Shown: positions 5,272 to 47,870 of the stretch, piece by piece
How the letters are laid out: each line of letters opens with the position of its first letter
Position numbering within the stretch: the stretch's first letter is position 1
Source: Margaritispora aquatica
Taxonomy: Eukaryota; Ascomycota; Leotiomycetes; Helotiales; Discinellaceae
Length of the DNA: 64,000 bases
Assembly: GCA_007644065.1 (NCBI GenBank)
Contig: VJWN01000004.1
Span: 1,178,001 to 1,242,000 of the forward strand
Direction of reading: 5' to 3'
Position numbers and translations under genes: made by a program
The notes under the pieces: generated by a model
Told to the model about the DNA's origin: nothing
Seen by the model: the letters and a program-made list of their open reading frames with translations, nothing else
The model's database searches: none

Positions 5272-7523
5272 CTTGAATCAATGAATGAATGGTTGTTTGG
5301 AACTTTGTGAAGTGAAAAGAATGTGATGGTTCCAGACCAACTTGAATGAATGAATTTTCTGAAGAGAATCAAAGACGAGACTTGCTGCGATGGAGAAAAA
5401 GTTTGACAGAGAGAGCAAATCACAATAGTATATATACTGTCTGTCCATAAACTCATACCCCACATCAGCATTGCAATAACTTTAAATCAGGACGAACGAT
5501 ATGAACGGCAAGGCTTGGCTGGGACGGTTCGTCCATTCAGAACGAGCTGTCATATGCGCTTTGTTTCGACGCCACCCTTGGTGTGAGAAACATATTGCTG
5601 ATGATGGAAGATAACTGTGAAGAGGAATTCGCCGATGATGATGCCAGTCTTGGCATATCATATAAAGTGTTTGGTCTTGAATAGGAAGTGGGTCCGCACA
5701 AGCCTGCAGATGAGATTAGGTTTCAGCATGCGCTCGCTTAGCACGGGGGTGTCATGTGACACATAATCAGGGTACCTTATGTGAGGAACTCGCTGGATGA
5801 ATTCATTCATGATTTCTGACAAACGACTGGTGATGGAAGAGAAGACCAAAAAAATCCAATCCTGTGGTATCCTACTATGTGCGAGGTGACTTGCGCAAAA
5901 CCATAGGAAAGTGAAAGTGAAAGTGTTGATCTTGGAGAACAAAAACAATTTGAGTACCCAATCACGAAAGTGCCAGGCAATCTATTGAGATGAGCATATA
6001 CATGTACAGTATTATATAGCGTCAGCATAATCACCAAGCGGTCTGAAAAATCTAAGTCTGTTTGCTTTTAACTACGATGCTAGCTCCACATGTGGCAATA
6101 AGTGGAACTTCATCCCTGAATTATCGCAGTACACTAATCAACATTCTTTTGCCTTCGAACTCCTGACATTCCTGATACATGAGTCCATCATTTCTCATCA
6201 TTGTCAGAACCTGTCTCCCCGCTCTCCCTTCAAACTGCATGTAGCTCACAGAAGCTCTTCGGTAGCCCCTCTATCCCAATCACAATTTCTCAATTTGTCT
6301 TTCCATCCTGGCCTAGACGAATGTTTTCGGGAGTTTTCTCTCCATTCCCTGCTGCTTTGCAAGTGAAATATGGGGGGTTTGCTTTGCTACCTTCAGCCAG
6401 CCTTGTCAAGCTGTAGCCTTTGCTGGGTGCAACAGTAACGCGCCCAAAAAACAAAGCATCCTACAAGCTATTCCTTTTTCCATTATAATTATGCTGTCCA
6501 ATATTATGTTGGATCCTAGCCAACCTCATTCGAGGACACCTGGGTAAGCAGCAAGGTCGATTCGAACGTCCTGAAAGTATGTGGGCTAGGGTTAGAACTG
6601 GACAAGATTGTACTCTCAAGGTTGCCATTTTTGAAGCAGAGTACTGAGCCTCTCTAACAATGATATGAGTAGATAGGGACTTTTGGTTAGTTCATACTAG
6701 GAGACAGATGTAGGACTTGTAGCACAGATGCCACAATATATTGAACAAGTCCGAGAGTTGTGGTTATTTATTAATCGGGAAGGGAAACACCTTCACAATT
6801 TCCTTTGTTGCATACATCGACGATCATGTCGTGTAATGGGCCCATTTGCTGCCTTTTTTTGCTAGGCCATCAATTGCTTAAACTGAAAACAGAAAGGGGC
6901 AAGCTTGGAGCCGCTAAGACGCTGTGACGTGAAACAAAGCCAGCATTAAAAATTAGAGATTGAATCTCTAGAGTAGAATTTGGCAAACTTGTTGTGAAAA
7001 AATCTACTCCTCTGTCGCAACTACGGTTATGTAGCTCTCCCAACCCGCATCGAGTTCCCATTAAAAGGGAGTTTGTGAACATGAAGCTATTCTGTCCTGT
7101 CGTGTTCGTTCCTTTACCAGCTTATATGAAGGGCTGTACAATTTCAATTTCGACAATATATCTATCAAGCCAACACAACAACCTATTGTTGACTCACCAG
7201 TTGTAACGACAAAAGAAGTTTGATTGACAATAAAGGTCAGTGTGACTTGAGAATAATAGTGACACTTGTTCTCGGAGCCTCAAGTACACACGCAGAAAAG
7301 TTTGGTATGGTTCTTCGGTCTATGGCTTGGCAGCTTAGAAAGTTATTTCTTTGATTTTTGACAATCTGAAAAAAAGCCCTTTCAGCTCCACTCCTTAGAA
7401 TACTTTCAGATTGATGCAGCAGCCTTTGCCTCTGCTTACCACATATCCTCCCATCAATTCTTAACGGTTGCTTTGTGGCTTTCCAATCATGTATCTCATG
7501 AAATACGATACGCACTGCTAGAA
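5272..7523. other. Intergenic, 2.25 kb, no gene seen
   Basis: Shared upstream region of the LPMO (minus) and 3' flank of the DUF3237 gene (minus). No frame over 100 codons, no tRNA and no recognisable repeat. Confidence 0.5.
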
Positions 7524-8438: not shown

Positions 8439-8716
8439 GCCGAGAAGTTGAGATGCTGCGAAATAGTCAATTCCTATGTTGTTGACTTATGCTTGAACTA
8501 GGCAACCGGGAAGATACATTTATCTGTTCATGCGCCTAATAGTGGCATTCTGTTGCACATGATGCAAGGTGCCGTGGGGCACAGTGGGGTGTTTCGGATT
8601 TATCCACCTCAACTTGGACTTGTTAGTGGATAGACTTCAACGCCACCAATCCACATTTGAAACACAAGCTGTTCAATAATTTAACTAGCAAATCCGAAAT
8701 AAAAACACAGCAAGAA

Positions 8717-8840
8717 GCCCGGCTGGCACAATTGGTTAGCGCGTGGGCCTTTTAAGCCCAAGGTTGAGAGTTCGAGCGTAAGTGAACCAATATATCTGAT
8801 CAACGATCAATAACTAACTCATAACAGCTCTCGTCGGGCG
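8717..8840 (+). tRNA. tRNA-Lys(UUU) with a 50-nt GT-AG intron in the T arm
   Basis: Exonic bases 8717-8777 and 8828-8840 fold into a 74-nt tRNA. The 7-bp acceptor stem is GCCCGGC/GTCGGGC with discriminator G. The anticodon stem is TGGGC/GCCCA with loop CTTTTAA (anticodon TTT), and the T stem is GAGAG/CTCTC around TTCGAGC. The D stem has one A-C mismatch. There is no intron at the usual 37/38 site. Instead 8778-8827 interrupts between positions 60 and 61, and it looks exactly like a short fungal mRNA intron: GTAAGT at 5', ACTAAC branch point, ACAG at 3'. Without its removal neither the T stem nor the acceptor stem can close normally. A pol III T-run follows at 8854-8858. The B box is cut near its 3' end. 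It could instead be an inactivated copy. Confidence 0.85.
8778..8827 (+). other. Spliceosomal-type intron inside tRNA-Lys(UUU)
   Basis: 50 nt with donor GTAAGTG, branch-point-like AATAACTAACTC and acceptor ATAACAG. The length and all three signals match the introns of neighbouring protein genes, and its ends coincide exactly with the break in the tRNA fold. Splicing by the spliceosome is inference. Confidence 0.7.
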
Positions 8841-8853
8841 TTCCGAAATATTC

Positions 8854-8858
8854 TTTTT
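8854..8858 (+). terminator. Pol III T-run terminator of the tRNA gene
   Basis: TTTTT, 13 bases after the discriminator base of the tRNA. Confidence 0.7.
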
Positions 8859-38816: not shown

Positions 38817-39467
38817 TGTGCGAGGTTGGAGGAAATTTCGAGGTTTTGAAGAAGAATTGAGATTATGTGCCTAGCGCTAGTCTAGCCGTATTGGGGCTAG
38901 CGCAAACGAAATTTCGATCCGGGTCAAAACTCTCACCGGTATTCAATATTTTCAAAAAATCATCCGTCCGACCACTTTCGCAATTCTGACCTTTCCAAAG
39001 AGAATTGTAGGTGTGAGAGTCTTTCATTAGATTTCTCGAATGTTGGACGGCAGACTGAATATCCGTTCTGTATCTACTGCTCCTTAATCTTTGATCTGAA
39101 GGAAACGGTTCGAAATGAGCGATACATACCTTGAAACCCCATAACAGATAGCAATTAATGAATTGAACATTAGAATGAGAAAGATGGAGTTGTAACATGT
39201 TAGCAACCGTCGCTTGTATAGTGTTGAGGAGACGGTGAAAATTATAAACGGAATTTATATTAGCTTCATGTCTACTTCTGCTGGCCATCTGAAAATTTCA
39301 CCGTGATCCTGATGGGGTTTGAAGCTGTCGATGACATGTTTTTGAACGGTTTATAATTATTCTCAGGCCAGCCCCAACTGCTCATATAGCCAAACGTCTA
39401 CCAGTCTGATCAAATACAAGGATGCTTCAGCAACATATACACACCCCTGTGTAGGTACTTCTACAGC
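38817..39467. other. Intergenic; one uncertain 141-codon frame
   Basis: A minus-strand frame at 38863-39288 (MASRSRHEANINSVYNFHRL...) reads 141 codons and ends 47 bases before the MRS6 start. It has no recognised domain and leaves no room for an MRS6 promoter, so I do not call it a gene with confidence. Confidence 0.35.
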
Positions 39468-41751
39468 TCATTTTTCCGGCTTCGCAGGATCCGTGCCCAT
39501 AAATACATCATGAATCCTCTTACTAATGGCCTGTCCAACTCTACGATCTGTAAACGCTCCATCCTTATTTGCGCTCTTCCTACAGTCTTCTAAAGCAGAC
39601 GGGCCATTTTTCTCGAAGCCCTTGACCAGCTGCTGGACTGTTGGATACAAATGTGCAACACCAATCGCCACTGGTAAGGTGACGCCCTTCATTTCTTGCA
39701 GCATTTTCGTATATGTATCCATAGTGTCTTCGCCAGTCTTGACTTGTCCGGTCTCCATGCAGAACCCTGTATCAAGATTCGTTTTCCTGTAGTTGTTAGC
39801 GCTTGGAACGCAAGCGGGGAAGAGATAGCACTTACTTGTACGGAACAGATGAGATATTCTCTGTGAACAGCTTGATCCATTGGGCGGTTTCCGGCATAGC
39901 GCCTGTGTGATGGATAAGAAAACCATGAGAAACTTGAAGCTCAAGTAATGCTTCCTCCACAAGCTCCTCGGCTACATACACCTCTTCCTTTGCTTTCTTC
40001 CTTTGATTCGCAGTAGGTTGTGCTTCAGGAGGGCCATGACTTCGGACGGCTCCAACGAATTCCTTGTTCTTAATGTTTTTATTTCTGCGATACCAAGCAG
40101 CTACACCTTCTATCAAGAAGATAACCTTGCACGAATCATATACGGAATTCAGCGTAGCGACTAAAGTGTTAAGATCATGGCCCTCATCTCCAGTGACATG
40201 TTGGACCAGCTCTCTCGCAGTGATCACGTACATGATATGCTTCTCGGATTTGATATGCTGTGAAACAGGATACCATAGACCTTCATCCTCATTCCACTCT
40301 GCAACAATCTTCCGTTTCCATTTGACGATTGGTTGTGGGCTATCCCACTCTGTGAAAGAGGCCTTAACATCCTCGAGAAATGTTTTAGTCTGACTCGACA
40401 GCTTTTTCTCTAGACAGGATGGAAGCTCTACGATCATCTCGGTAGTTGTAAGCTTCTTATCCGTTCGTAAAGTATTGACATTGGCAAGTTCGGCTGCTTT
40501 CTGCTTCTCTCTAGCTTTCATCTCCCTTTCTTCTCGTTTCTCCTCCCTCTCAGCTTCTTTAGCAGCTTTTTTAGCTCTTGCGGCATTAGACTTGGCTTCT
40601 GCTGCCTTTGTCTTTGCAATATCAGCTTTCGTCTTCGCTACAATGGCCTCGCCTGCTGTTGTGAAACCGTGAGGTTTCGGTCTTGCTTTGGATTTCGCAC
40701 CACTGGCAGCTACCACAACAACAGCATCATCATCACCCTCATCATCTGTATCAAGAGAGGCGTATGGATCAAGTATACTTGATGCTGCAATGCTCGATTG
40801 CGTTCGTGGTTTGGACGGTGATTTTGGTTTTGGTTTAGTGTTGTGTGATTGAAATTTTGGGACCTCAAAATCAGACAAGCTCATAAAATCAGAATCATGA
40901 TGGTGTCCTGCAGAGTTTCCAATTCCGGAGCTCTGTTTCTTGGACTGGGCAGGAATCCTGTCCAAAGCTACGATGCTATCATCGTCGCTGCTCAGAATGG
41001 GTAGACCATACATGTTTTCCTTTCCCTTCCCTTTGTTTTGCGATCTCTCTCGTTCGTATTTAGAACTCTGCCCAAATGTAGCCATATCCCCATCAGAATC
41101 AATATCCATCATGGTTCTCTTCCTTCGTTTTCTCGCCGCATCTGCCACATGATCTGGAGAACTTGTAAACACAATTGGATCAGACTCGAGTCTCGCGCTG
41201 GTTGTGTCTGCACGCTTCAACCCCGCAGTCTCTCCCCGCTTGACAGGATTCTTGCTCTTACTGACAGATTCGATGTTAGAGAGCGACCTAGTATAGCCCC
41301 CAGTCTTAAGCTTCTGCAGAGCTTTCGGTGATGGGGACAGCCTTTGTTTCTTCGCCGGCGGTAAGTCATTGACCATTGAGTCGTCAAAGTTTATAGTGCT
41401 GTCGAAATCCTCATCTAAGAATCCAAAATCTGATACCATGACGGGGTTTGAGACCGTCTTTGCCAGAGGTGTGGGTAATAGTACACTCTTTGTTGCTTGT
41501 TTTGATTCTTCCAAATTATCGAAATTCCAGCTGGATCCCCCAAACAGCCCCGAAGATTTTGGCATGGGGTCCCCGAAAGGCCATTCTTGCTCATGCTCGT
41601 TATCCGAAGATAGGGATATAAATTCATGATTTGCCGAGTTTGATGACTTGTACGAGAGAACCTTCGCAGGTGGCACATTCTCCTTTCTCAGGGTAGGCAG
41701 ACGCGCTTCTGGACTCGATAAGAGGTCTATAATCACTGTACTAGGGGGCAT
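39468..41751 (-). CDS. EME1: Crossover junction endonuclease EME1 (partner of MUS81)
   Basis: Two exons (41751-39836 and 39786-39468) give 744 residues. The first 400 are disordered, Ser/Lys/Asp-rich, with PPSTVIIDLLSSPEARLP at the start and a long Ala/Lys/Glu coiled coil (AKTKADIAKTKAAEAKSNAA). The ERCC4-like nuclease-fold domain begins about residue 440 (VKWKRKIVAEWNEDEGLWYP; EKHIMYVITARELVQHV; YDSCKVIFLIEGVAAWYRR). It lacks the ERKxxxD catalytic motif, as expected for the non-catalytic EME1 subunit. The C-terminus (GVAHLYPTVQQLVKGFE, VGQAISKRIHDVFMG) is the helix-hairpin-helix region. With MUS81 it resolves branched DNA at stalled forks and in recombination. Confidence 0.9.
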
Positions 41752-46722: not shown

Positions 46723-47751
46723 TGCGATTGACGAGACTTGAAAATGGCAGATTCGTCACTGTTTCCTTTTTCGTTGACTCTCATTATTCGCGAGGGGCAC
46801 CTCTTCGAGATAAAATAGATGCATGTTGGAGTTGGATTAAGCTTGATTTCATGAGTGTTTCGCTTCGGTCGCGACACCAGAGACTCGGCTGCTCTCGGAC
46901 CAACACTTTGGGGGAAACAAGTCATGTCTGGGGAATGATCTCGCATGTGTCGAATCATCGAGAAAATCGTATTCTGTTTTTGTGGCTGGATACCCCTGTG
47001 TGAAACTTCTCAGGAGTTTGTAACAGTGAGTGCTCAGGCATCTTGCCCGGCAGTAAAGTTTCATCTGATATTTTTGACAATGAAAGGTCGCGCACGAGCC
47101 AGAAATCTCAAAACAAACGTCTCCAATCTGGATTATTAGAACTCTACTAGAAAGCTTCCTTGTAGTTGTCTCAAGGATATGAAGTTTTGTTGAGAGTGAT
47201 GGCCATATGAGACCACACATGTGGTCCACAACGATCAGAAGATTAGCCGAGTATGATAGAAATGCCCTCGTTCTGACCAAGACTCGAGTTTGCTAGTTCT
47301 TGCGAGAAGGTGAAACAAATAGACAGGTAGCTTGTGTTATAAAAGCAAAATGATTGCAGATTTGGGGAGGGACAAAGTGACCTCGCTTAAGTTCTGCTAA
47401 AATTATGCCACCAAATTTAATCGCACGAAGTATTTTGGTCGGAGAATAACTTGCTGTCATGGAAATATACTATAAGGGAAAGCAAGATCCGTTGCCAATT
47501 AGAGTTTGCGCACGAAAACGGCCCTCCTCACAATTTGGTTTCATATCCCCAAAAGCTTCAGGTCACTGGCCAAACGAGTTTTATTCAGCTACAACTTTTG
47601 CGATAACTTGTTATCTCTAGCTAGTAAAATATCAAGAACATAGAAATTCGTAGTTCTCATCTTGTGCTCCTATCTCACACAACAACAAAAAAGGAAATGG
47701 TGATAAGGTGATGTCCAACAGCCAAGTAGTTCATCAAAAGGAAACTGCAAA
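46723..47751. other. Intergenic, 1 kb, no gene seen
   Basis: Promoter of the rhodopsin-like gene and 3' flank of the 5S rRNA gene. Confidence 0.5.
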
Positions 47752-47870
47752 ACATACAACAGTAGGTATTCGCTGGTGGTCACCCACCCAACTACTAATC
47801 TACCGATCTGAGGCTTGTGTATGGCAGAGCGGACGGGATGCCCAATTCTCCTCAGTCTATGGTCGTATGT
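47752..47870 (-). rRNA. 5S ribosomal RNA, complete, dispersed copy
   Basis: The minus strand reads ACATACGACCATAGACTGAG at the 5' end (47870) and ends TACTGTTGTATGT at 47752, 119 nt. The ends pair over nine positions as helix I. The middle contains the pol III internal control region (AAGCCTCAGATCGG; GTAGTTGGGTGGGTGACCAC). A T-run follows immediately. Single dispersed 5S genes are normal in filamentous ascomycetes. Confidence 0.95.

Follow-up and report, generated by a model that had tools for sequence, protein, structure and literature searches.

The tRNA-Lys(UUU) gene at 8717-8840 of the window, the 64,000-nt stretch of DNA analysed here (C34:1178001-1242000 of a genome assembly of 42.36 Mb in 49 contigs), raises the question of whether a nuclear tRNA gene can carry an intron of the mRNA type. 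The enzyme assumed for nuclear tRNA introns is tRNA endonuclease. The insert in the T arm of this gene was taken, in a sequence-only reading of the locus, for a GT-AG intron for which no established counterpart in a nuclear tRNA was known. Likewise, among the papers listed by searches of an open-access collection, which has few subscription papers and no preprints, none reports spliceosomal introns in nuclear tRNA genes in its title or opening abstract.

The interrupted tRNA-Lys(UUU) gene

The gene lies on the forward strand. ARAGORN, run on the joined sequence, places nt 1-60 in a 5′ exon at 8717-8777, which includes the anticodon TTT (8751-8753) and the T loop (8771-8777), and nt 61-73 in a 3′ exon at 8828-8840. 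The acceptor strand GCCCGGC is followed by the D arm, the anticodon arm with the loop CTTTTAA and the T arm GAGAG-TTCGAGC; after the insert, the gene resumes as CTCTC-GTCGGGC-G. The insert itself, 50 nt at 8778-8827 between nt 60 and 61, is defined by deletion tests and by its signals. It opens with the 5′ splice site GTAAGT (8778-8783), contains the branch site ACTAAC (8813-8818), whose A lies 10 nt before the intron end, and closes with the 3′ splice site CAG (8825-8827), so that all three signals reported earlier are in place.

The earlier claim that a Lys fold requires the removal of this segment holds as well. In the raw window, ARAGORN calls no tRNA and an Rfam scan at the gathering score finds none, the raw locus scoring 21.5 bits in the Rfam tRNA scan against a cut-off of 29. 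With 8778-8827 deleted, ARAGORN calls a 74-nt tRNA-Lys(ttt). Among 1,702 trial deletions of 40-62 nt around the locus, 46 yield a tRNA call, in every case Lys; the 40 of these that were listed have lengths of 48-52 nt, and none starts more than 7 nt away from the start of the GT-AG interval. The boundaries of the insert can be placed in one way only. Strict intron signals (GTRAGY..CTAAY..YAG within 45-65 nt) start at 11 of 128,000 positions when both strands of the window are counted, the Lys(UUU) insert among them, and since they are so rare, their exact coincidence with the tRNA insert by chance is unlikely. The neighbours of the gene among open reading frames of at least 150 aa are AA9 monooxygenase-like and glutathione S-transferase-like. 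For one protein encoded in the window, a comparison with a protein library gives 509 matches; among the 120 listed, those from Cadophora, Mollisia, Hyaloscypha and Rhexocercosporidium, genera of the Helotiales (Leotiomycetes), show 71-86% identity, in some cases over only part of their length, and the best match shows 81%. Elsewhere in the window, Rfam identifies a 5S rRNA gene at 47751-47870 on the reverse strand (74.7 bits).

A second tRNA-Lys(UUU) gene, L122, is located at C48:1719163-1719243 (+). It is divergent from the window gene and has no T-arm insert, and its anticodon loop consists of CTTTTA, a 7-nt intron and a final A; ARAGORN reads this locus (as L027) with a stop anticodon. The existence of L122 is one reason to ask whether the window gene, unlike the rest of its class, is non-functional. 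The window gene also has an A12:C23 mismatch in the D stem, has neither a close copy nor an interrupted paralogue among the genes found, and retains when unspliced a B box, AGTTCGAGCGT (8769-8779), that matches at 9 of 11 positions as the best site, without a chance control. However, its anticodon and T stems are perfect, its acceptor stem contains a single G:U pair and its splice signals are complete. A T5 run at 8854-8858, 13 nt downstream of the gene, is a likely pol III terminator, and a TATA-like stretch, ATAATTTAA (8676-8684), sits at the usual place, about -41 from tRNA nt 1. Loss of function confined to the window gene is unlikely.

Interrupted tRNA genes across the genome

The window gene is not a one-off. 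Genome-wide, 14 interrupted nuclear tRNA genes were found, the window gene and 13 more, among 24 copies in seven isoacceptor groups, and the reading first proposed for the window gene, a nuclear tRNA gene with an mRNA-type intron, is still the best. All five copies of Arg(ACG) found are interrupted at position 53/54, and both copies of Gln(UUG) found are interrupted in the acceptor stem at 6/7. Two of the three Trp copies are interrupted at 59/60, two of the six Lys(CUU) copies at 53/54, one of the four Ser(AGA) copies at 55/56 and one of the two elongator Met copies at 26/27. Together with 60/61 in the window gene, this gives six insert positions in seven group-position combinations, none of them the canonical 37/38. 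All of these are minimum numbers, as the search scores the best candidates only; nuclear Asp, Glu, Phe, Tyr, Cys and Pro are among the isoacceptors that were never found.

The tRNA family search of the genome gives 61 matches at E≤0.001. At E≤10 it adds six weak matches, which are the window gene, four equal-scoring Arg(ACG) fragments and one Gln(UUG); reading these reveals that GTAAG...AG inserts interrupt all four Arg copies at 53/54 and the Gln copy at 6/7. A DNA search with joined exons recovers one more interrupted copy each of Arg(ACG), its fifth, and Gln(UUG), its second, as well as two interrupted and one intact Trp and one interrupted Ser(AGA) with three copies that have no insert. 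The two interrupted Lys(CUU) copies come from signal patterns, and a further DNA search brings Lys(CUU) to six copies and places an elongator Met interrupted at 26/27 beside an uninterrupted copy. Ten fungal tRNAs used as a single DNA query give no matches, the DNA search apparently requiring close identity, and two exact patterns give no matches in viral_contigs.

The first pattern run gives 10 matches (control 18), five of them tRNA genes (three Arg and two Lys(CUU)) and five not tRNA. The second gives 25 (control 23), of which three are tRNA genes (two Trp and the window gene) and 22 are not. The third gives 36 (control 146); the 13 examined comprise two Gln tRNA genes and 11 that are not tRNA, and one of the remaining 23 overlaps a known uninterrupted Arg(TCT) gene. 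Since the signal patterns show no excess over their controls, it is the tRNA context that carries the discrimination. A D-arm pattern gives 28 matches (control 49). Eighteen of these (L082-L099) include two genes for Val, L089 and L085, the latter called Cys(aca) by ARAGORN; seven (L075-L081) are six Gly copies and one non-tRNA; the last three are two mitochondrial matches and a known Gly(CCC). A B-box pattern run on the genome gives 565 matches against 737 for the backward control.

The idea that the isoacceptors absent from the family search are all interrupted was dropped, as that search also overlooks genes for Gly(GCC) and Val whose introns are of the ordinary anticodon-loop kind. One Gly(GCC) copy, L076 (C1:3174044 +), has apparently lost parts of its anticodon and T arms and is likely a pseudogene. 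Two tRNA-like loci off the mitochondrial contig, L039 (C48:685604 +) and L051 (C12:788952 +), have anticodon-loop inserts of 72 and 81 nt. Contig C38 is apparently mitochondrial; its tRNA matches at 5297-7429 repeat at 38998-41129 with identical scores, which points to a concatemer or a duplication.

Exon conservation and insert divergence

When the insert is removed, ARAGORN calls a tRNA in all 14 genes, with the correct isotype in 12; the Ser and Met isotypes are correct once the anticodon-loop intron is removed as well. From the raw genes it makes no call in 11 of 14, still calls Trp for L062, and assigns to two others introns that were judged bogus. Relatives with an empty site are present for five groups: L028 for Trp, L034, L035, L037 and L042 for Lys(CUU), L029, L070 and L071 for Ser(AGA), L032 for Met and, for the Gln group, the Gln(CUG) gene L066.

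The 5′ exons are 98-100% identical among the Arg copies and 97% identical in Trp. The two Gln copies match at 100% over the pieces found, exon 1 being just 6 nt, and the Lys(CUU) 5′ exons are 83% identical, a figure that includes the anticodon-loop intron. Of the 13 within-group pairs of insert cores, ten are barely above shuffled sequences (z from -0.1 to 2.4). The other three, at z 3.7 to 4.7, join the Arg inserts of L054, L055 and L064, which look related by common descent and would thus not be independent cases. Comparison of the Arg with the Lys(CUU) inserts, both at 53/54, gives no convincing similarity (z from -0.1 to 2.3).

Some stems have changed on both sides. Alone among the four Ser(AGA) copies, the interrupted L072 has T50A together with A64T, so that a T-stem pair is kept across the insert; its change from A4:T69 to G4:C69 is common to the uninterrupted L071. 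In the interrupted Met gene, L120, the pairs 28:42 and 29:41 are changed on both sides.

These features bear on the possibility that the genes are pseudogenes, interrupted by inserts whose signals arose by chance or are in decay. Short insertions in the D or T arm are described, in a passage of PMC4090602, as usually taken in eukaryotes for the mark of a pseudogene, and Trp, Lys(CUU), Ser and Met have insert-free copies, as does Lys(UUU) in the form of a divergent gene. The sequence-only reading had itself held that several intact tRNA-Lys(UUU) genes, in combination with a lack of spliced tRNA reads, would mean a pseudogene, and one other Lys(UUU) gene, L122, does exist. However, every copy of Arg(ACG) and Gln(UUG) found is interrupted, so spare copies cannot account for the class. 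The codons CGU, CGC and CGA are in use, occurring 28, 21 and 40 times in six open reading frames of the window, where CAA occurs 67 times. With Arg 5′ exons nearly invariant despite diverged inserts, compensatory changes in Ser and Met, and splice signals in all 14 genes, a class made up of pseudogenes is highly improbable.

Splice signals and intron type

The inserts of all 14 genes are 48-61 nt long, which is too short for a group I or group II self-splicing intron; the window locus, the only one scanned for these, has no Rfam match to either. The median length is 54 nt, against 52 nt for local mRNA-like introns, a control set that is itself restricted to 45-65 nt. Each gene allows one or two equivalent boundary placements, exactly one of which has GT and AG ends. 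The 5′ site is GTAAGT in six inserts, GTAAGC in six, GTGAGT in one and GTATGT in one. A branch motif is found in every insert (CTAAC in 11, and CTAAT, CTGAT and CTAAA in one each); the A of the motif lies 10-12 nt before the insert end, and the 3′ end is CAG in nine and TAG in five. T4 runs, at which pol III could terminate, occur in 1 of the 14 inserts compared with 4 of 19 strict mRNA-like introns, a difference that is not significant (p=0.28); among the loose ones the count is 10 of 30. Canonical 37/38 introns are common across this genome, and the interrupted Gln(UUG), Lys(CUU), Ser and Met genes carry a canonical anticodon-loop intron as well.

Ectopic tRNA introns of the archaeal and red-algal kind, cut by the tRNA-splicing endonuclease at bulge-helix-bulge (BHB) motifs, share some positions with these inserts, passages of PMC9602550 and PMC4090602 placing them at 53/54 in Cyanidioschyzon merolae tRNA-Ile and at 53/54 and 59/60 in archaea, respectively, but they are a very unlikely explanation here, since none of the 14 genes passes a test for a 4-bp central helix even with shifts of ±1 (a crude test without a positive control) and the BHB mechanism predicts no GTAAGY, CTAAC and YAG at near-fixed spacing.

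Transcription signals

A T5 run starts 4-36 nt downstream of all 14 interrupted genes. Among 48 uninterrupted nuclear ARAGORN calls, 33 have such a start within 36 nt, where the background chance is 0.048. In the same 48 calls, TATA-like words are most frequent at -45 to -41 relative to tRNA nt 1. In Gln, the 6/7 insert separates exon 1 by a long distance from the A box downstream. In the Gln gene L056, TATATATA lies at -42 if exon 1, rather than the A box, is the reference, and this position suggests that transcription starts upstream of exon 1 with its 6 nt. No TATA-like word is present at the usual distance in the other Gln(UUG) copy or in Arg L064.

The sequence-only reading had pointed out that the intron cuts the B box near its 3′ end and had asked how pol III would recognise such a gene. 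The window gene is indeed left with a reduced B box, but the problem seems milder than it first appeared: in the seven genes interrupted at 53/54, the final AG of the intron gives an 11/11 match (AGTTCGANCCC), this and the following matches being the best within about 200 nt, with no control for chance. On the same footing, the unspliced Gln and Met genes keep their own B boxes (11/11 and 10/11), the unspliced Trp genes have an 11/11 match formed by the 3′ end of the gene and its flank, and the unspliced Ser gene has a 10/11 match inside the insert. In Trp, L028, L062 and L063 have in common the sequence ATRCCTC 3′ of the gene, which makes up the 11/11 match when joined to the last six bases of the tRNA; the farther flanks differ. 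The suggestion that the downstream B box of Trp was gained after the intron was dropped, as the intact Trp copy has the same match.

In the His genes L048 and L123 and the Ala(AGC) genes L067 and L069, the first 70 nt of the trailer hold a further hairpin that resembles a T arm, such as GGTGGTTTGATTCCACC. Such hairpins occur in 4 of 48 trailers and in 13 of 1,828 background 70-mers, and those of the His and Ala(AGC) genes are possibly extra B boxes.

Proposed processing and origin

The anatomy of the genes, the signals, the empty sites, the conserved exons with diverged inserts and the compensatory stem changes, all of them observed directly, point to the window insert being a U2-type spliceosomal intron in a pol III-transcribed tRNA gene, one of at least 14 in this genome, a reading to which we assign a probability of about 0.88. 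The cell probably needs its mRNA-splicing machinery for some of its tRNAs. In the proposed pathway, pol III would transcribe a precursor that contains the insert, the spliceosome would excise the insert as a lariat after recognising GTAAGY, YAG and the CTAAC branch site, and the tRNA would fold after the excision. The canonical anticodon-loop intron of Gln(UUG), Lys(CUU), Ser and Met would be cut separately by tRNA endonuclease. The introns appear to have been gained several times, probably through reverse splicing or intron transfer, and in some groups the gain may have come after duplication of the tRNA gene.

Taking the copies found as a guide, it is rather likely that the spliceosome is an essential tRNA-processing enzyme in this fungus. 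All Arg(ACG) tRNAs, which read CGU, CGC and CGA, and all Gln(UUG) tRNAs would then be spliced like mRNA, some precursors would be processed by tRNA endonuclease as well as by the spliceosome, and the gain of new spliceosomal introns in pol III tRNA genes would be under way. If this is true, mRNA-type introns in essential tRNAs, at six positions and in seven isoacceptor groups, couple decoding to the spliceosome, and the spliceosome acts on several pol III transcripts that have neither a cap nor the pol II C-terminal domain. The interrupted and empty paralogues would together form a natural experiment on intron gain. Annotation that restricts tRNA introns to the anticodon loop misses such genes, as ARAGORN does for most of the raw ones.

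Comparison with known systems

Canonical 37/38 tRNA introns occur in several of the same genes as the inserts described here, but they differ in position and have no splice signals in common with them. Introns outside 37/38 are known from Cyanidioschyzon merolae, nucleomorphs and Crenarchaeota; as described in passages of PMC9602550 and PMC4090602, they include the position 53/54 and are sometimes accompanied by a canonical intron, as is also the case here. A passage of PMC4090602 attributes the archaeal and C. merolae introns to tRNA endonuclease and BHB-type sites and gives the mechanism for the nucleomorph introns as unknown. The inserts described here differ from these ectopic introns in that their signals are of the mRNA type and they fail a simple BHB test.

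Spliceosomal introns in the nuclear rDNA of ascomycetes, as they appear in passages of PMC11782384, where an rDNA of this kind is used and a paper of 1993 on an mRNA intron within 18S rDNA is cited, provide another case of an mRNA-type intron in a gene that does not encode an mRNA. The host there is a large rRNA, whereas here it is a tRNA.

U6, like the tRNAs, is a pol III transcript. U6 and U3 are named in a passage of PMC5832005 as the only small structured RNAs known as of 2017 to be often interrupted. The introns of fungal U6 snRNA and U3 snoRNA, as that passage describes them, resemble the inserts described here in being short, in having GT-AG ends and fungal branch sites, and in being present in some paralogues and absent from others. 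Unlike in U6 and U3, the hosts here are several groups of tRNA genes, whose A and B boxes are internal, and some of their precursors hold a second intron in the anticodon loop.
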